From Clostridia bacterium (GTDB lineage: Bacteria; Bacillota; Clostridia; Lachnospirales; WQUN01), in the NCBI GenBank assembly GCA_025997155.1, contig BNUF01000007.1:1-36457 (forward strand): a stretch of DNA of 36,457 nt. Direction: 5' to 3'. Below are positions 5,890 through 27,947 of this stretch, one piece after another. Position 1 is the stretch's first letter. Every line of letters starts with the position of its first letter. Under the pieces are notes generated by a model. It worked only from the letters and a program-made list of their open reading frames with translations. It did no database searches and had not been told where the DNA came from. Both the position numbers and the translations under genes were made by a program.

Positions 5890-5918
5890 ATTTTAGCACA
5901 TATAAAGGAGACTGTCAA
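5890..5918 (-). promoter_or_regulatory. Sigma-A promoter of ptsG-ptsH-ptsI
   Basis: On the minus strand, TTGACA (5913-5918) is followed after exactly 17 bp by TAAAAT (5890-5895). Transcription would start near 5883, leaving a leader of about 35 nt. This sets the ptsG start and excludes a GlcT/LicT-type leader. Confidence 0.8.
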
Positions 5919-5991
5919 CAATCTTTGGCGTGATTATTTTCTTAAACTTTGGAAATACTTTACTTAAAATATTATATAAAGGGGCATACAT

Positions 5992-6594
5992 ATGCTGGGT
6001 AGGTTGTTTGACGCGAAAATCTTTGTAATATCGGTATTGGCGGGGGTTATAGTCACGGCGGCGGGAGCGTCCTACGCGGAGCGAACCGAAAAAGGGATTA
6101 CCGACAACGTAATCCGTCTGCATATATTGGCGAACAGCGACCGCGAAATCGACCAGACGCTCAAGCTCCGCGTGCGCGACGAAATTTTGGCGCGCTACGG
6201 CGAAATCCTTAACGGAAAAGACATATCCTCCGCCCGTTCCCTGATTCTCGAAAATTTGCCCAAGATACAGGAAACCGCCCAAAACGCGGTTTATTCTGGC
6301 GGAGCAGCTTACAGCGTTAGCGCGAAACTCGAAAAAAGCGCGTTCCCGACGAAAACATACGGCGACATCGCCCTCCCCGCCGGGACATACGAGGCGCTTA
6401 GAATCGAAATAGGCGCGGCAAAGGGACGCAACTGGTGGTGCGTAATGTTCCCGCCCCTTTGCTTTGTGGACGCGGCGCAAGTTTCCGACGAGATGAAAGA
6501 CAAACTGCGCGAAAACCTGCCCGCCGAAAGCTATAATGTCGTCACGAATCCTGTCAAGGTGAAATTCAAGATTGTCGAAATCTTTCACAAATAG
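5992..6594 (+). CDS. spoIIR: Stage II sporulation protein R
   Basis: SpoIIR is made in the forespore and secreted toward the mother cell, where it triggers SpoIIGA to process pro-sigma-E. The 200-aa product has one N-terminal hydrophobic segment (about 9-27), then the family hallmarks IRLHILANSDREIDQTLKL and GRNWWCVMFPPLCFVD. AAAGGGG lies nine bases before the ATG. The upstream GGAAATACTT (5951-5960) resembles the -10 of forespore sigma-F promoters, but no convincing -35 partner is seen. The gene is divergent from ptsG and its 3' end overlaps the convergent Rrf2 gene by 10 bp. It is good evidence that the host can sporulate. Confidence 0.93.
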   Translation: MLGRLFDAKIFVISVLAGVIVTAAGASYAERTEKGITDNVIRLHILANSDREIDQTLKLRVRDEILARYGEILNGKDISSARSLILENLPKIQETAQNAVYSGGAAYSVSAKLEKSAFPTKTYGDIALPAGTYEALRIEIGAAKGRNWWCVMFPPLCFVDAAQVSDEMKDKLRENLPAESYNVVTNPVKVKFKIVEIFHK

Positions 6595-7025
6595 AACATA
6601 TAGCCCTCCGCCGCCTGCTTTTCGCTCTCCGCCACAAGTTCGTCAAGCGTCACGCAAAGAGAGTCGCGAATAGCTTTGTCAACCTTCTCAAAAACCATAT
6701 CCCGCATAGCGCTCTCGATGAATTTTTCGTTTTCCTCAATCGTGTTTTCGGTTTTCTCGAACATAGAAGTCTCGATGGAGTACAAAATGTCGCCCGCCGT
6801 GATTTCGGACGGGTTTTTCATTAGGCGGTAGCCGCCCTGCGCCCCTTTTGTCGACGAAACAAGTTCCGCCCTCTTTAGCAGTGAAAAAACCTGCTCAAGG
6901 TAAATTTTTGAAATATCAAGGCGTTTAGCCAGACTTATTATTGTAACGTACTCCTGCGCGCGGTAACTCTGCGCCAAACATATCATAGCGGACAGACCGT
7001 ACCGCGCCTTTACGGATATTCTCAC
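6585..7025 (-). CDS. Rrf2-family transcriptional regulator
   Basis: The 146-aa product starts VRISVKARYGLSAMICLA from a GTG at 7023-7025, with GGGGTG six bases upstream; this matches the family's usual start. It has the winged-helix DNA-binding domain (about 1-60) and the signature GAQGGYRL. The three clustered cysteines that hold an Fe-S cluster in IscR are absent: only one cysteine near the N-terminus and one near residue 120 are seen. It is therefore more like CymR-type members that sense via partner proteins. No cysteine or Fe-S biosynthesis gene is adjacent, so the target cannot be inferred. It is 17 bp downstream of the broken HaeII gene. Confidence 0.88.
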   Translation of the reverse strand: MRISVKARYGLSAMICLAQSYRAQEYVTIISLAKRLDISKIYLEQVFSLLKRAELVSSTKGAQGGYRLMKNPSEITAGDILYSIETSMFEKTENTIEENEKFIESAMRDMVFEKVDKAIRDSLCVTLDELVAESEKQAAEGYMFYL

Positions 7026-20879: not shown

Positions 20880-22045
20880 CGTACCGCCCCGCTTTCAATC
20901 GCCGCCCGCGCAACCGCCGCCGACACAAATTCGCGTATGCGCGGGTCGAATGCCTTCGGCAAAATATAATCCGCCGAAAGTTCGTCGTCGCTCACAAGTT
21001 CCGAAAGAGCTCGCGCCGCCGCGAGTTCCATAGCTCCGTTTATGTCGGTGGCGTAAACGGAGAGCGCGCCGCGAAAGAGGGCGGGGAACGCGAGCACGTT
21101 GTTTATCTGGTTCGGGTAGTCGCTCCGCCCCGTGCCGACAATATACGCACCCGCCTCTTTCGCGAGTTCGGGCATAATTTCGGGGGTCGGGTTCGCCATC
21201 GGGAAAATTATCGGTTTATCAGCCATTGCGCGTATCATCTCGGGCGTTAGAACAGCGGGGGCGGACACGCCGATAAACGCGTCCGCGCCTTGCAGCGCAT
21301 CGGCTAATGTGCCTTTTTTTCGCGACAAATTGGTGAGTTTCGCAAGCTCCTCCTGTTCGGAGTTGAGGTCAGCGGCCCCTTGGTAAAGCGCGCCTGATTT
21401 GTCGCAAATTGTAACGTTTGCGAAACCCTCTGAAAGTAAAATTTTGGCAATCGCAACCCCTGCCGCTCCCGCGCCGTTTATGACTACCTGTATTTTTTTC
21501 TTATCCTTGCCGCAAACCCGAAGCGCGTTTAGCATTGCCGCAAGAACCACAATCGCCGTCCCGTGCTGGTCGTCGTGACACACGGGTATGGCGCAGATTT
21601 CTTTCAGCCGCCGTTCAATCTCAAAACAGCGCGGCGCGGCGATATCCTCAAGGTTTATCCCGCCGAAATTCCCCGCCAAAAGAGCGACTGTACGCACTAT
21701 CTCATCGGTATCCTTTGAATCTATGCAAATAGGCACAGCGTCAAGCCCGCCAAACGCCTTAAAAAGAACGCATTTCCCCTCCATAACGGGCATCGCCGCC
21801 AACGCCCCGATATCCCCCAAACCAAGCACCGCCGTGCCGTCCGTCACAACCGCGACTGTATTCGCCCGCCCCGTCAGCGCGAAACTCTCGGCTGGGTTCT
21901 TTGCAATGGCAAGGCAAGCCGCCGCCACCCCCGGGGTGTACGCAAGCGACAATTCCTCCGACGTTTCCACGCTCATTTTCGGGATAGTCTCTAATTTTCC
22001 GCGCCACTCTCTGTGAAGGCGCAAGGATTCTTCTAAATAATTCAT
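20876..22045 (-). CDS. NAD(P)-dependent malic enzyme
   Basis: The enzyme oxidatively decarboxylates malate to pyruvate and CO2. The 389-aa product is the short bacterial type without a phosphotransacetylase tail. Motifs include SLAYTPGVAAACLAI, VAVVTDGTAVLGLGDIGALA, PICIDSKDTDEIV, CHDDQHGTAIVVLAA and the nucleotide loop INGAGAAGVAIAKIL. I start at the ATG at 22043-22045, which overlaps the alaS stop as ATGA, with GGGAG upstream; a longer reading in this frame is arginine-rich and runs inside alaS. The stop overlaps the reductase start the same way. It probably supplies reducing equivalents or pyruvate; direction in vivo is not knowable here. Confidence 0.94.
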   Translation of the reverse strand: MNYLEESLRLHREWRGKLETIPKMSVETSEELSLAYTPGVAAACLAIAKNPAESFALTGRANTVAVVTDGTAVLGLGDIGALAAMPVMEGKCVLFKAFGGLDAVPICIDSKDTDEIVRTVALLAGNFGGINLEDIAAPRCFEIERRLKEICAIPVCHDDQHGTAIVVLAAMLNALRVCGKDKKKIQVVINGAGAAGVAIAKILLSEGFANVTICDKSGALYQGAADLNSEQEELAKLTNLSRKKGTLADALQGADAFIGVSAPAVLTPEMIRAMADKPIIFPMANPTPEIMPELAKEAGAYIVGTGRSDYPNQINNVLAFPALFRGALSVYATDINGAMELAAARALSELVSDDELSADYILPKAFDPRIREFVSAAVARAAIESGAVR

Positions 22046-24705
22046 GTTCTCGCTCCCAGTTGCGCGGTCAAAATCTCCACGCATTTTGAAACGGCCTCGT
22101 CGATTTTTTCGGGGTCTTTGCCGCCCGCCGTCGCCATATTCGGTTTGCCGCCGCCGCCGCCGCCGCAAATCTGCGCTCCGATTTTCACGATTGCCCCCGC
22201 GTTCGCGCCGGATTCCACCGCCTGTTTCGACGCTGAAACGACAAAGTTCACCTTTTCAGCAAGCGACGACGCCAAAATAACCACGCCTCCTGATTTTTCA
22301 CGGAGTTTGTCGGATATACATTTAAGTTCGTCCATATTCACATCTTTAAGAATCCCCGTGATTACGGATATTCCGCCTATGTTTTGCGGATTTTTCGCAA
22401 GTTCCGAAACGATTTCGTTGCTAACTCCAGAACGCGCCTTGTCAAGTTCCGACAAAAGCCCGCGCATAGTGTTGAGTGTCGTGTCAACCTTCGCCTCAAC
22501 GTTTTCGGGGGTAGCTTTTAGCATCTTGCATATATTTTTTAATTTATGCTCGGAACTCTTGTAGTGCTTTATAGCGGTACTTCCTGTCAACGCCTCGATT
22601 CGGCGCGTTCCAGACGCACTCCCCGTTTCGGAGAGAATCCTGAAAATCCCGACTTTTCCCGTATTATCCACATGAGTTCCGCCGCAAAATTCAATCGAAA
22701 CGCCATGCCCGATTTCCACCACCCGCACGGTGTCGCCGTATTTTTCGCCGAAAAGAGCCATTGCGCCTTTTTCCCGCGCCTCCTCAATCGGCAGTTCCTG
22801 TGTGACGACAGGCAAAAACTCCATAACCTTTTCGTTTACGATTAGTTCGACTTTTTCCAGTTCTTCTTCTGTGAGGGGGGCAAAGTGGGTAAAATCGAAC
22901 CGAAGATGGTTTGGCGACACCATAGACCCCGCCTGCTCCACGTGATGCCCGAGAACCATACGCAAAGATTTTTGCAAAAGGTGCGTCGCGGTGTGGTTTT
23001 GGCTCGTCTTAAGGCGGTTCTTTTTGTCGACGGTAACCATAACATAGTCGCCCACGCGTATCTCGTTCTGCCCGACAACGCCGATATGCGCGATTTTGTT
23101 GCCCGCAACGCGGATACAGTCGCTCACAAAAACTTTGTTAGAACGCCCTCTTTCCGCGCTCGAGATAACTCCCTTGTCGCCTTTTTGCCCGCCCTTTTCG
23201 GGGTAAAGCACCGTTTTGTCAAGAATTACGGCGACGGTGTCGCCCTCGCCCGCTTGGCTTATGGGCCTGTTCCCGCTTATAATAGCGAGAACCTTAGCCG
23301 CGCACTCCGTTTCGTCATACCCGACAAACTCCGACGCCATATCGGTCGGGAGAGTGTTGTACACAGTCGCGTCACTTCCCATATATGTGGTCGTCTCGCG
23401 TGATTCCCGCGCCCGCGCCTTCTGTTCGCGCATTTGCTCCTCAAAACCCTTTTCGTTCACGGTTATGTTCGACGCCGCGCATATTTCTTTTAGCAGGTCA
23501 AGAGGGAATCCGAAAGTATCGTACATTTTGAACGCGTCGTCGCCTTGCAGCTCACTTTGTCCGTTTTGCTGAAGTTCTGATATCTTCTTTTTAAGAAGGG
23601 CGATACCCGCGTCAAGGGTTTGGTAAAATCTGTCTTCCTCGACGGACAACGCCTTGTGTATATATTGGCTTTTTTCTTTAAGTTCGGGGTACGCTCCGCC
23701 CGAAACGTCTATTACAATTTTTGACAAATCGCTTAGGAAAATTTTGTCAATTCCCAGAAGTTTGCCGTGCAGAGCGGCGCGGCGAAGAAGCCTCCGCAGG
23801 ACGTACCCGCGTCCCTCGTTTGACGACTGGATTCCGTCCGCCGTCATAAATGTGACGGAGCGTATATGGTCGGTGATTATGCGTATTGAAATGTCGGTTT
23901 TCGGGTCGGCGTTGTACTCTTTTCCCGAGACCTTGCAAACCTCGTCGCGGATTGCGCGGATTGTGTCAACGTCAAAAATTGACGACACCCCTTGGGTCAC
24001 CGCCGCGACTCTCTCAAGCCCCATTCCCGTGTCAATGTTAGGCGCGGCAAGGGGGAGGTAACTGTCGTCCGTCTGTTTGTCGAATTGCGTAAATACGAGA
24101 TTCCATATCTCGACATATCGGTCGCAATCACAGCCGACGCCGCAATCGGGGCTTTTGCAGCCGTGTTCGGGGCCTCGGTCGAAATATATTTCGGAGCAAG
24201 GCCCGCAAGGTCCGATTCCGACTTCCCAAAAATTGTCGTCTTTTCCCAGACGTTTGATTTTTTCGGGGGCAAGCCCGACTTTTTCCTGCCAAATATTGTA
24301 TGCCTCGTCGTCCTCTTCGTACACGGACACATACAGAAGTTCGGCGGGGATTTCCATAACTCCTGTCATAAATTCCCACGCCCACGGGATTATTTCGTGT
24401 TTGAAGTAGTCCCCGAAGGAAAAGTTTCCAAGCATTTCAAAAAAAGTGCCGTGGCGCGTCGTGATTCCAACGTTCTCAAGGTCGCCTGTGCGTATGCACT
24501 TTTGGCAGGTGGTCACGCGCTTTGAGGGAGGCGTCTCCCGCCCCGTGAAATATGGTTTAAGCGGAGCCATACCAGAATTTATGAGGAGCAGACTGTTATC
24601 ATTTTGCGGGACGAGCGGAAAACTCTTTAAGCGAAAATGCTCCTTCCCCTCAAAAAATGCCAGAAACTTTTCGCGTATTTCGTTCAGACCTCTGTATTTT
24701 AGCAT
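22042..24705 (-). CDS. alaS: Alanyl-tRNA synthetase
   Basis: AlaRS charges tRNA-Ala. The 887-aa product is full length. The N-terminal catalytic part shows LINSGMAPLKPYFTG and TTCQKCIRTGDLENVG. The editing domain carries HTATHLLQ and CGGTHVDNTG, whose His and Cys residues bind zinc. The C-terminal region ends with GAQICGGGGGGKPNMATAGG, the usual glycine-rich C-Ala segment. GGAGAG lies upstream of the ATG. The leader is long (about 200 nt from the promoter at 24915-24943) because a 163-bp palindromic element sits in it. No T-box motif (TGGNACC with terminator) is visible there, although many Bacillota alaS genes have one. It heads the alaS-mae-trxB-proA-SLH run. Confidence 0.97.
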   Translation of the reverse strand: MLKYRGLNEIREKFLAFFEGKEHFRLKSFPLVPQNDNSLLLINSGMAPLKPYFTGRETPPSKRVTTCQKCIRTGDLENVGITTRHGTFFEMLGNFSFGDYFKHEIIPWAWEFMTGVMEIPAELLYVSVYEEDDEAYNIWQEKVGLAPEKIKRLGKDDNFWEVGIGPCGPCSEIYFDRGPEHGCKSPDCGVGCDCDRYVEIWNLVFTQFDKQTDDSYLPLAAPNIDTGMGLERVAAVTQGVSSIFDVDTIRAIRDEVCKVSGKEYNADPKTDISIRIITDHIRSVTFMTADGIQSSNEGRGYVLRRLLRRAALHGKLLGIDKIFLSDLSKIVIDVSGGAYPELKEKSQYIHKALSVEEDRFYQTLDAGIALLKKKISELQQNGQSELQGDDAFKMYDTFGFPLDLLKEICAASNITVNEKGFEEQMREQKARARESRETTTYMGSDATVYNTLPTDMASEFVGYDETECAAKVLAIISGNRPISQAGEGDTVAVILDKTVLYPEKGGQKGDKGVISSAERGRSNKVFVSDCIRVAGNKIAHIGVVGQNEIRVGDYVMVTVDKKNRLKTSQNHTATHLLQKSLRMVLGHHVEQAGSMVSPNHLRFDFTHFAPLTEEELEKVELIVNEKVMEFLPVVTQELPIEEAREKGAMALFGEKYGDTVRVVEIGHGVSIEFCGGTHVDNTGKVGIFRILSETGSASGTRRIEALTGSTAIKHYKSSEHKLKNICKMLKATPENVEAKVDTTLNTMRGLLSELDKARSGVSNEIVSELAKNPQNIGGISVITGILKDVNMDELKCISDKLREKSGGVVILASSLAEKVNFVVSASKQAVESGANAGAIVKIGAQICGGGGGGKPNMATAGGKDPEKIDEAVSKCVEILTAQLGART

Positions 24706-24725
24706 ATAAATTCTTCTCTCCGTAA

Positions 24726-24888
24726 GAACCTGTTTAGTATCCCCATCGCACCGTCTTTTTGGCTAATTTCCCGCCCTGCCGCGTCAGCCCCTCCTAACAA
24801 ACTCTCTGGAGTGTGCGTCGTCGGGGCTTCCTTGCAGGGCGGGAAATTAGCTCAAAAATCCGCCGCAAGCGGGATACTAAACAGGTTC
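24726..24888. mobile_element. 163-bp palindromic MITE-like element in the alaS leader
   Basis: The element has 18-bp perfect terminal inverted repeats (GAACCTGTTTAGTATCCC at 24726-24743, complement at 24871-24888). It also has a second 18-bp perfect inner pair (24762-24779 with 24834-24851), extended through a T5/A5 tract with one bulged base. Between outer and inner arms is a 12-base mismatched segment on each side, and the centre is an ~54-base loop. The trinucleotide TAA flanks both ends (24723-24725 and 24889-24891), as expected of a target duplication. No coding frame is present. IS5-type elements of the IS1031 group are known to duplicate TNA and to have GAGCCTG-like ends, so an IS5-type transposase is the likely mobiliser. 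Confidence 0.75.
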
Positions 24889-24914
24889 TAAGAATATCCC
24901 TACCATATCTTTAA

Positions 24915-24943
24915 ATTTTACCATTTTTGGCGGGGTTTCGCAA
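24915..24943 (-). promoter_or_regulatory. Promoter of alaS
   Basis: Minus-strand TTGCGA (24938-24943), 17 bp, TAAAAT (24915-24920). Transcripts from here would include the whole palindromic element before reaching alaS at 24705. Confidence 0.6.
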
Positions 24944-24984: not shown

Positions 24985-25029
24985 TAAAGATAATAAATGT
25001 AAAAGAAGGTTTTAGATAAAGTTCTTTTG

Positions 25030-25076
25030 CTTCTTTTCTTTCAAGAAAAGAAGTGGGGTTTGGGGCAAAGCCCCAA
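25030..25076 (+). repeat. Two adjacent hairpins in the yqhQ leader
   Basis: The first (25030-25053) is an 11-bp perfect palindrome, CTTCTTTTCTT paired with AAGAAAAGAAG around TC. The second (25060-25076) pairs TTGGGGC with GCCCCAA around AAA. Neither is followed by a T run, so they are not obvious terminators. The compact A/G-rich palindrome plus GC hairpin looks like a dispersed intergenic repeat, but only one copy is in this window. Being just before the GAGG site at about 25093, they could affect translation. Confidence 0.5.
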
Positions 25077-25101
25077 GGTCTTGACCTTGATTGAGGTAAA
25101 T

Positions 25102-26094
25102 ATGAAAAACGACGATATAAAAAAAGCGTACCAAGCCGCGGGAGCGGACAAGGCAATCGGCGGGCAGGCGGTAATCGAGGGCGTTATGATGCGCGGAAAG
25201 AGAATGTACGCTATCGCCGTGCGAACGCCAGACGGACATATCGAGACGGTGCGGGAGGACGTTACGCCTGTTTCGGAGAAGTACAAATTGTTCAAACTGC
25301 CGATTCTGCGGGGGATTGCGTCCTTTTTGAGTTCGCTTGTGGTGGGAATGGAAATTTTGATGAAATCCGCCGAAATCGCGGGGGAGAATTTGGAGGACGA
25401 AGAGCCGTCAAAGTTTGAGCGGTATCTTATTGACAAATTCGGCGAAACGGCGTTTATGAAGTTTTTGATATATGTGAGCGTGGCGGTTGCGCTTGTGATT
25501 TCAGTCGCGGTTTTTATGCTGTTGCCTGTATATGTCGGGGGATTTTTTGAGGGGTTGCTTAAGGGGAACACGTGGGCGCTTGGGATAATCGAGGGGACGG
25601 TAAGGATTGCGCTGTTTCTCGGGTATCTGTCGCTTGTCGGGAGAAACCGCGACATTCAGCGGGTTTTCCAGTACCACGGCGCGGAACACAAGACGATTAA
25701 CTGTTTTGAGGCGGACTGCGAACTTACGCCCGAAAAGGTGGCGGAGTACCCGCGCTTGCACAAACGCTGCGGGACGAGTTTTTTGCTTATCGTAATGGTG
25801 ATAAGTATGATTGTGTTCCTGTTTTTGCGGACGGACGTTTTTCTTGAGAGGGTTTTGTGGCGCGTTCTTCTCGTGCCGTTTATCGCGGGCGCGTCCTACG
25901 AGTTCATCAAATGGGCGGGGAGAAGCAAGTCGAAGGCGGCGTATTACCTAAGCTATCCCGGGCTTTGCCTCCAAAAAGTGACCACACGCGAGCCTGATTT
26001 ATCACAGATAGAGACGGCGATAACCGCACTGAAAGAAGTTTTGAAGAGTGAAAACAACGAGGGAGCTGTTGCGGGAGGGGTACAGCCGTCTTAG
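25102..26094 (+). CDS. yqhQ: DUF1385 (YqhQ-type) membrane protein
   Basis: The 330-aa product starts MKNDDIKKAYQAAGADKAIG at 25102, five bases after GAGG. The family signature AIGGQAVIEGVMMRGKR is at about 18-35. Hydrophobic segments follow at about 75-95, 125-165 and 190-215, and another pair in 235-290. A conserved YHGAEHKTINCFE motif, with a histidine pair and cysteine that could bind metal, lies in between. In Bacillota this gene is often next to prmC and prfA, as here. Its molecular function is not established. The prmC start lies inside its 3' end by 47 bp, so the two are coupled. Confidence 0.9.
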   Translation: MKNDDIKKAYQAAGADKAIGGQAVIEGVMMRGKRMYAIAVRTPDGHIETVREDVTPVSEKYKLFKLPILRGIASFLSSLVVGMEILMKSAEIAGENLEDEEPSKFERYLIDKFGETAFMKFLIYVSVAVALVISVAVFMLLPVYVGGFFEGLLKGNTWALGIIEGTVRIALFLGYLSLVGRNRDIQRVFQYHGAEHKTINCFEADCELTPEKVAEYPRLHKRCGTSFLLIVMVISMIVFLFLRTDVFLERVLWRVLLVPFIAGASYEFIKWAGRSKSKAAYYLSYPGLCLQKVTTREPDLSQIETAITALKEVLKSENNEGAVAGGVQPS

Positions 26095-26878
26095 GGCGGC
26101 GGGGAGCGAAACATACAGCCTTGACACGCAGTTGTTGCTTGCCCACGCGCTTAACGCGGACAGGCTGCACGTTTTGACATACGCGGGGGGTGTGCCTGAA
26201 GACAGAGCCGATTTGTTCTTTGGGTATATCGAACAAAGAGAACGCCATAAACCTGTACAGTATATCACGAATTATTGCGAATTTTTTGGGCTTGGGCTGT
26301 ATGTGGACGAAAACGTGCTTATCCCGCGAGCGGACACCGAAATTTTGGTCGAGGAAACGCTTAAATGTTTGAAGAAAGGCGACAGGGCGCTTGAGATAGG
26401 CGCGGGGAGCGGCGCGGTGTCGATTGCCCTGAAAAAGAACGCGGACGCTGTTGTTCACGCCGTCGACGTTTGCCCGAACGCGCTTTGTGTCGCGCAAAAA
26501 AACGCGGATACCCACGGCGCGTCTATATGTCTGTTTCTTTCGGATATATTCAGTAATGTAACGGATTCCTACAACATAATAGTGTCGAATCCGCCGTATA
26601 TTAAAAATGACGAGGAGCTGCCCGAAAGCGTGCGTTACGAGCCGAAAAAGGCGTTGTACGGCGGCGCGGACGGGCTTAGGTTCTACCGCGAGATAACCGA
26701 AAACGCGGGCGGACGTCTTGCGAAGGGCGGAGTTTTGCTGTTTGAAATCGGCGCGTCACAGGCGGCGGAGGTATCCGAACTTTTGACTAAAAACAACTTT
26801 GTAAATATACAAGTAGCTCAGGATTTATCGGGACTTGACAGAGTTGTAAAAGCACAGAAAGGGAATACGAATGTTTGA
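26048..26878 (+). CDS. prmC: Release-factor glutamine methyltransferase
   Basis: PrmC methylates the glutamine of the GGQ motif in release factors, here probably the RF1 of the next gene. The 276-aa product starts at a GTG (26048) inside the end of yqhQ. It has the N-terminal helical domain, then [14 protein letters not shown] for S-adenosylmethionine binding and the catalytic NPPY in [10 protein letters not shown]. Length is normal (about 280). The end overlaps prfA by 8 bp. Gene order prmC-prfA is reversed in many bacteria, but the pairing is standard. Confidence 0.93.
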
Positions 26879-27947
26879 GAAACTGCTTGAAATGGAACAA
26901 AAATTCGACAAACTCACAGAAGAGATAAACGACCCCAAAATTATGGAAGACCGCGACAAATGGCGCGAGATGATGAAGGAACACAGCACCTTGGGCGAAA
27001 TCGTCGGGGTTTTTCGGGAGAGCAAGAGGGCGGAGAAGGAGCTTGCGGACGCGAAGGAAATGCTTAACGGCGACGCGGAGGACGACGATTTCAAGACGCT
27101 GTTAAAGGACGAAATCAAGGAACTTTCCGACAACGTTGAAAAGCTTCGCGAAGATTTGAAAATACTGTTACTGCCGAAAGACCCCAACGACGACAAAAAC
27201 GTAATCGTTGAGATTCGCGGGGGGGGGGGGGGCGACGAGGCGGCGTTGTTCGCGGGGGATTTGTTCCGAATGTACAGCAGGTACGCGGAGCGAAGCCGTT
27301 TCAAGACTGAGATTATGAACGCGAACGACTCCGACCTTGGCGGATTCAAGGAAATCGTGTTTATGATAACGGGGAACGGCGCGTATTCCCGTCTCAAATA
27401 CGAAAGCGGCGTGCATAGAGTTCAGCGAATCCCGACGACGGAGAGCGGGGGGCGGATACACACCTCAACCGTGACCGTCGCGGTACTTCCTGAGGTGGAC
27501 GAGGTGGAAGCTCCCCTCGACCTAGGCGATGTACGCGTCGACGTTTTTCGTTCGTCGGGCAACGGCGGGCAGAGCGTCAACACGACGGATTCGGCGGTAC
27601 GCGTGACGCACGTCCCCACGGGCATTGTCATTTCCTGTCAGGACGAAAAATCACAGCTTAAAAACAAGGACAAGGCGTTAAAAGTTCTCCGCGCCAAGTT
27701 ATACGAATTAGAACAGGAAAAACAGCGAAACGAACTCTCCGAGAAACGCCGAAGTCAGGTAGGTACGGGCGACCGAAGCGAACGCATACGCACCTACAAT
27801 TTTCCGCAGGGACGCGTCACCGACCACCGCGTAAACCTCACGCTCCACAGGCTTGACGTTATCCTTGACGGCGACCTTGACGAGATTATGGACACGCTAA
27901 TCACCACCGACCGCGCCGCGAGTTTGACAAGTGTACAGGGTAATTAG
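26871..27947 (+). CDS. prfA: Peptide chain release factor 1
   Basis: RF1 ends translation at UAA and UAG. The 358-aa product is full length, with the stop-codon-reading loop at RIPTTE (PTT at 188-190, PAT or PVT in most) and the catalytic GGQ at 232-234 in [17 protein letters not shown]. Position 235 is Ser where many RF1 proteins have His; I believe this variant also occurs in other Gram-positive groups. Residues 117-121 are five glycines encoded by a run of 14 G, where most RF1 proteins have a more mixed AGTGG-type sequence. The frame is intact across it. It overlaps prmC by 8 bp. Confidence 0.95.
27219..27232. repeat. 14-G homopolymer inside prfA
   Basis: Fourteen consecutive G follow CGC and precede CGAC, encoding glycines 117-121 of RF1. 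Such a tract is prone to slippage in replication, transcription and sequencing. The count is in frame here. Confidence 0.95.

Follow-up and report, generated by a model that had tools for sequence, protein, structure and literature searches.

A probable IS5-type MITE before alaS in a Clostridia bacterium and the core, conserved on one strand, that it shares with differently ended elements

The 163-bp element that lies before the essential gene alaS in the 36,457-nucleotide stretch of DNA from an uncultured Clostridia bacterium analysed here (the window) is very probably an IS5-type MITE built around a core that is conserved on one strand. Bacterial MITEs are usually regarded as dead IS fragments whose ends alone matter. 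In this family of elements the ends change, and yet genera share a one-strand fold between them, which extends more weakly to other classes.

The element occupies positions 24726..24888 on the (-) strand, which is the sense strand of alaS and the strand of the conserved core (O1), and it begins GAACCTGTTTAGTATCCC and ends GGGATACTAAACAGGTTC. An earlier note, made from the letters alone, had described a palindromic 163-bp unit without coding capacity, with two nested perfect 18-bp repeat pairs and TAA on both sides, and the repeats and the TAA copies were found in place. The terminal inverted repeats are perfect over 18 bp, the left one (GAACCTGTTTAGTATCCC) at 24726..24743 (+) and the right one at 24871..24888 (-), and the inner inverted repeat, also perfect over 18 bp, lies within the core stem with its left arm at 24762..24779 (+) and its right arm at 24834..24851 (-). 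The target duplication reads TAA at both 24723..24725 and 24889..24891, and the list of open reading frames has no entry within the element at a cut-off of 80 aa. The conserved structured core spans 24748..24864 (-), where it matches covariance model R1 at 124.8 bits, a score to be read with the window core being one of the 19 cores from which R1 was built. In the alaS sense, the element has a predicted folding energy of -112.6 kcal/mol, compared with -51.4 (sd 3.8) in shuffled sequences (z -16.2), and none of 200 shuffles was equally stable.

Copies elsewhere in the same genome (G000; 3.05 Mb in 502 contigs, 77% complete) show the hallmarks of mobility. Blastn with the element returned 27 matches at 18 places, the surplus matches being additional pieces of a copy or its palindrome matched on the opposite strand. 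Both ends could be placed in 15 copies, and in 11 of these the 3-bp flanks agree exactly, reading TAA or TTA in every case; because the flanks of the copies on contigs C18 and C116 are the same, this amounts to an exact duplication at 10 of 14 distinct sites. The remaining four copies are flanked by TAA/TCT (C14), TTA/TCA (C20), TAA/TGA (C56) and TTA/TAT (C39), the last having TATTA on both sides. The earlier note had named a blastn search for copies with TNA duplications of their own as its check on mobility, and this result supports the reading of its MITE-like unit as a MITE. The copies fall into two subfamilies, with ends GAACCTGTTTAGTATCCC (that of the window) and GAGCCTGTTCAGTATCTC, and include shortened forms of 121 bp and 79 bp. 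A blastn comparison of the element with phage and plasmid records found no match.

Two places in this genome hold compound arrangements. At G000:C18:1-616 and C116:1016-1534 (L214, L215), the 163-bp and 121-bp forms lie between the same flanks, apparently as one insertion in two forms. The similarity stops after ~500 bases, which would fit either strain variants or a duplication; C18 itself starts with the terminal part of a different IS5-type element. At G000:C122 ~5897-6990 (L151, L198), a MITE of the second subfamily is split about midway by an IS5-type element whose ends read GAGCCTGTTCAAAATCTT.

TNA targets are habitual for one subgroup of IS5, and the same genome contains IS5-type elements of 831–875 bp with DDE_Tnp_1 matches: 849 bp with TAA duplications (C148), 831 bp with TTA (C12) and 875 bp with TCA (C128). 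The first part of the C148 element matches NCBIfam IS5_3 at 65.9 bits, under the 110-bit cut-off of that model, and in several of these elements the frames are broken by stops. Their ends are related to the MITE ends, with agreement at 15 of 18 bases for the second subfamily and at only 12 of 18 for the window end. An autonomous partner with the GTATCCC end was found neither in the own genome, by end pattern with up to 3 mismatches and at the DDE_Tnp_1 places, nor in the loci inspected after a search of 295 genomes of the order with the end pattern (13 with a match) and of 15 genomes for transposases (6 with a match). For another end type, TAGGGCGTGTTNCCACTA, a check confined to 30 fetched loci did turn up a like-ended IS5-type element, an 824-bp one in genome G033 (L439) with matches to PF13340 and PF01609. 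We propose that a non-autonomous IS5-type MITE inserted into a TAA of the alaS leader, and that it was probably mobilised in trans by a TNA-duplicating IS5-family transposase; related elements are present in the same genome.

The shared core was first seen as weak blastn matches to other genera (7 of 61 genomes matched, counting the own genome), in which the middle of the element was alike and the ends were other. From cores found in this way we hand-picked 19, excluding those that were cut off, for alignment A1. They fold as one hairpin in which YAGGA faces GACGM twice, at mirrored places, and the own-genome form likewise has two mirror-placed YAGGA/GACGM loops; at the hairpin tip the sequence varies and pairing is retained. 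Standard pairs fill 92.3% of the cells of A1, compared with 80.0% in shuffled alignments and 39–49% in slid ones. Double-sided changes occur at 20 of 30 pairs, and none of 500 shuffles reaches A1 in any of five measures. Two further sets, less independent than A1 because they were found with the structure model, were aligned blind to structure. The first, 25 family cores less than 75% alike, gave the same fold, with 93.1% of cells paired and double changes at 33 of 36 pairs. The second, more distant set comprised 23 of 29 representatives from outside the family (L276, L297, L306, L310, L314 and L320 were excluded) and the window core, and had 90.4% of cells paired and double changes at 27 of 30 pairs; here the first loop (CAAGGM ... 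RACGMAG) is kept and the second is variable. Searches with Rfam 15 found only tRNAs at gathering score in the window, a best score of 22.1 bits against a gathering score of 150 for the element at a lax threshold, and nothing at gathering score for the core in 16 further loci.

At an E-value of 0.001, R1 located the core in 22 of the 38 family genomes (up to 60 matches per genome), in 37 of 391 from the class and in 13 of 398 from the phylum, counts that include the own genome each time and, for the phylum, three further genomes that are also in the class set; in the family set, the window genome alone represents its genus. Core matches are also present in three single-contig genomes (G456, G991 and G1030). 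The part of these matches that was fetched yielded 187 distinct cores in 59 clusters. Two successive cores in the same orientation occur at both G325:C94 (L288) and G974:C13 (L306, L328), and no terminal repeats are evident around the L288 pair. At G008:C260 (L120, L125), a core is apparently split at its centre by a further inverted-repeat element.

The base pairs of these cores distinguish the two strands. When the cores are read as O1, the model pairs contain 390 G-U and 42 A-C cells, or 193 and 34 when each is counted once per cluster and pair, numbers in which the search itself is biased towards G-U and towards pairing because the cores outside A1 were picked with the structure model. Leaving out the one very common U-G pair gives 269 vs. 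42 cells and 159 vs. 34 by cluster and pair. Counted as distinct events, departures from a Watson-Crick consensus within clusters comprise 45 G-U, 14 A-C, 81 swapped Watson-Crick and 48 other changes. O1 is more stable than its complement in 182 of the 187 cores and less stable in four. The terminal arms, taken as a control, are also skewed (G-T 254 vs. A-C 142), and a cruder alignment of the core arms with no helix definition gives only 487 G-T vs. 400 A-C because the loops are aligned too. A tandem G.A step, in columns that the model leaves unpaired, switches in a coupled manner between GA/GA and GC/AA: among 189 rows, 137 have GA/GA, 31 GC/AA, 4 GA/AA and 17 other combinations, with no GC/GA. 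These rows were counted on the model alignments, a text pattern being noisy (42 of 187 missed, 18 C/G). From the G-U excess, the stability of O1 and the coupled G.A step, we conclude that selection acts on one strand of the core, most likely as RNA.

Around these cores the ends differ. Ends with an alignment score of at least 10 were found for 154 of the 176 cores having enough flank, and the element is 158–172 bp long in 116 of the 154. In genome G035, at least eight end types could be told apart by eye on such cores (for example AGAACCTGTGTTCAATACC, AGAAGCTGTATTCATTGACC, AGACCTCTTCCGAAAC, AGGGCGTGTTCCCACTACC and ATACCAACTTGCCATC), not all of them unrelated since several begin IS5-like. Two of its cores, L355 and L351, are 87% identical, and their ends, TAGACCTGTCCGGGAACTCC and AGAAGCTGTATTCATTGACC, match no better than shuffled sequence. 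In G029, L379 and L374 have 78 identical bases in mid-core, with unlike outer stems and ends. Like cores with unlike ends make up 168 of 383 same-genome pairs, a proportion that is too high, some ends having been assigned to flanking sequence (e.g. L422), and five pairs were therefore inspected as alignments instead. Like cores within unlike ends imply either that cores move between end types or that ends are replaced around cores. The earlier idea of a mobile element with a folded leader RNA stood as regards the MITE, and overlooked the strand-specific core common to differently ended elements.

Could the core act as single-stranded DNA of one strand in recombination, rather than as RNA? Strand-specific single-stranded DNA hairpins are known of the HUH and attC types. 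Such a role would explain the exchange of core blocks, and a strand-specific hairpin with conserved mismatches, the 78-base block in two unlike frames and the tandem cores of some genomes all fit it, but the ends and duplications are of the DDE-type IS5 kind, and we regard this reading as unlikely. It is quite unlikely that the element is an ordinary palindromic MITE whose inside is functionless, either as an IS fold-back remnant or as the product of palindrome correction at the DNA level. Correction would also yield paired changes on both arms, the terminal arms lean to G-T too, and the portion of PMC10969869 available to us leads one to expect folded transcripts from bacterial MITEs. Correction, however, gives perfect palindromes, yet here mismatched loops persist, as does the tandem G.A step; the strand asymmetry of the core and the presence of like cores inside unlike ends likewise argue against this explanation.

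The reading that we prefer, an IS5-type MITE with a core conserved on one strand, would place the window element in a modular Bacillota MITE family. In such a family, terminal repeats of ~20 bp, fitting some transposase, would surround a core of ~117 nt that is predicted to form a long hairpin from one strand, with the conserved tandem G.A step and YAGGA/GACGM internal loops. RNA would be the active form of the core: read-through transcripts in the core direction may fold, to be bound by an RNA-binding protein of the host or cut by one of its nucleases. Processing of the core RNA by an RNase III-like activity is a first guess that we make with considerable doubt. Folding together with binding or cutting by the host would render insertions tolerable, and the core would for that reason be kept whatever its ends. 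We suggest, tentatively, that selection may have the core and not the ends as its unit, the core being a structured RNA that is mobile by riding acquired transposon ends and that passes between end types. If so, RNA-cored MITEs would form a mobile class defined by fold, served by many transposases across Bacillota. Confirmation would add an unlisted RNA family borne by DNA transposons, and raises the question of which protein reads the core and what a MITE loses when the core is absent.

As far as we searched, a strand-specific core common to differently ended MITEs has not been described. Our literature search, whose scope left most subscription journals outside, recognised no description of such a core, including in the available parts of PMC2267715, and the accessible sections of a MITE review (PMC10969869), PMC2229807 and PMC3049150 do not describe a common core under many ends. 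The closest known systems are IS5-family-derived MITEs, which are likewise short and non-coding, with perfect terminal repeats, TNA duplication and related-ended IS5-type elements in the genome; the window element differs from them in having a structured core common to elements with other ends. Folded MITE transcripts are described in what we could consult of PMC10969869 and PMC2229807, and the latter, in the same part, proposes RNase III processing for NEMIS. Correia/NEMIS and ERIC are thus alike in being MITEs with folding transcripts; they occur in other hosts, and that part of PMC2229807 describes no such core in them. The pneumococcal BOX, RUP and SPRITE elements are likewise small interspersed repeats for which RNA structure is predicted, BOX being modular and present in a leader region and RUP being thought to be mobilised by IS630-Spn1; the available text of PMC3049150 describes no common core in them under many ends. 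IStrons (PMC4227781) also tie a structured RNA to a DNA transposon, and their self-splicing is said to render insertions harmless. They carry a group I intron, whereas the core here has no Rfam match.

At the locus itself, alaS encodes an alanine--tRNA ligase (887-aa ORF, 22042..24705 (-); TIGR00344, 944.8 bits). Its start codon lies 20 bases past the element, with GGAGAG in that gap, and on the other side of the element a promoter-like site, TTGCGA-17-TAAAAT, lies at 24915..24943 (-). The earlier note had put the element wholly between the alaS promoter and start: the placement stood, and the promoter is better called promoter-like, a consensus match that is only suggestive since 2 such sites were found in the 551 bases scanned vs. 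0.7 expected. Because the core is sense-oriented with alaS, the alaS mRNA should carry it, and with the core sense in the leader an effect of the element on alaS expression is possible.

That the element instead regulates alaS as a leader, in the manner of a T-box or an attenuator, is highly improbable: its sense orientation between promoter-like site and start codon, a weak terminator-like hairpin at 24872-24860 (-) and a T-box at one of the alaS loci of other genomes would suit a leader, but copies occur at many non-alaS sites, the window has no T-box (Rfam 15 covariance models), and R1 found no core (E 0.01) in 909,778 bases of 80 other alaS loci (the top-ranking 80 among 413), with upstream DNA of varying length (only 180 bases in L027). 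Conservation before alaS alone in many species, which the earlier note had named as the mark of a regulatory leader, is therefore not what we see. With the window lacking a T-box and those loci lacking the core, the T-box or alaS-leader candidate was dropped; so was an intrinsic terminator, the weak hairpin being the single site found vs. 0.8 expected, which is chance level. The T-box just mentioned, in 1 of 14 alaS loci scanned with Rfam, is at L039:4215-4421 (+), ~580 bases before the alaS match.

Nor do the cores show a preference for lying sense to the genes that flank them. By crude ORF calling, 38 share the sense of both neighbours, 57 run antisense to both, and 28 and 26 are in the two other arrangements (n=149, 15 of them overlapped by a long ORF; p 0.064), 38 of the 187 cores having been dropped where one side lacked a gene. 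The cores are thus unlikely to serve in general as leaders of neighbouring genes, and the position before alaS looks like one insertion among many. The genes after alaS encode a malic enzyme, then a pyridine nucleotide-disulphide oxidoreductase (trxB-like) and an aldehyde-dehydrogenase-family protein (proA-like). Divergent from alaS, at 25027-27947 (+) of the window, are genes for a DUF1385 protein, a PrmC-like methyltransferase and a peptide chain release factor.
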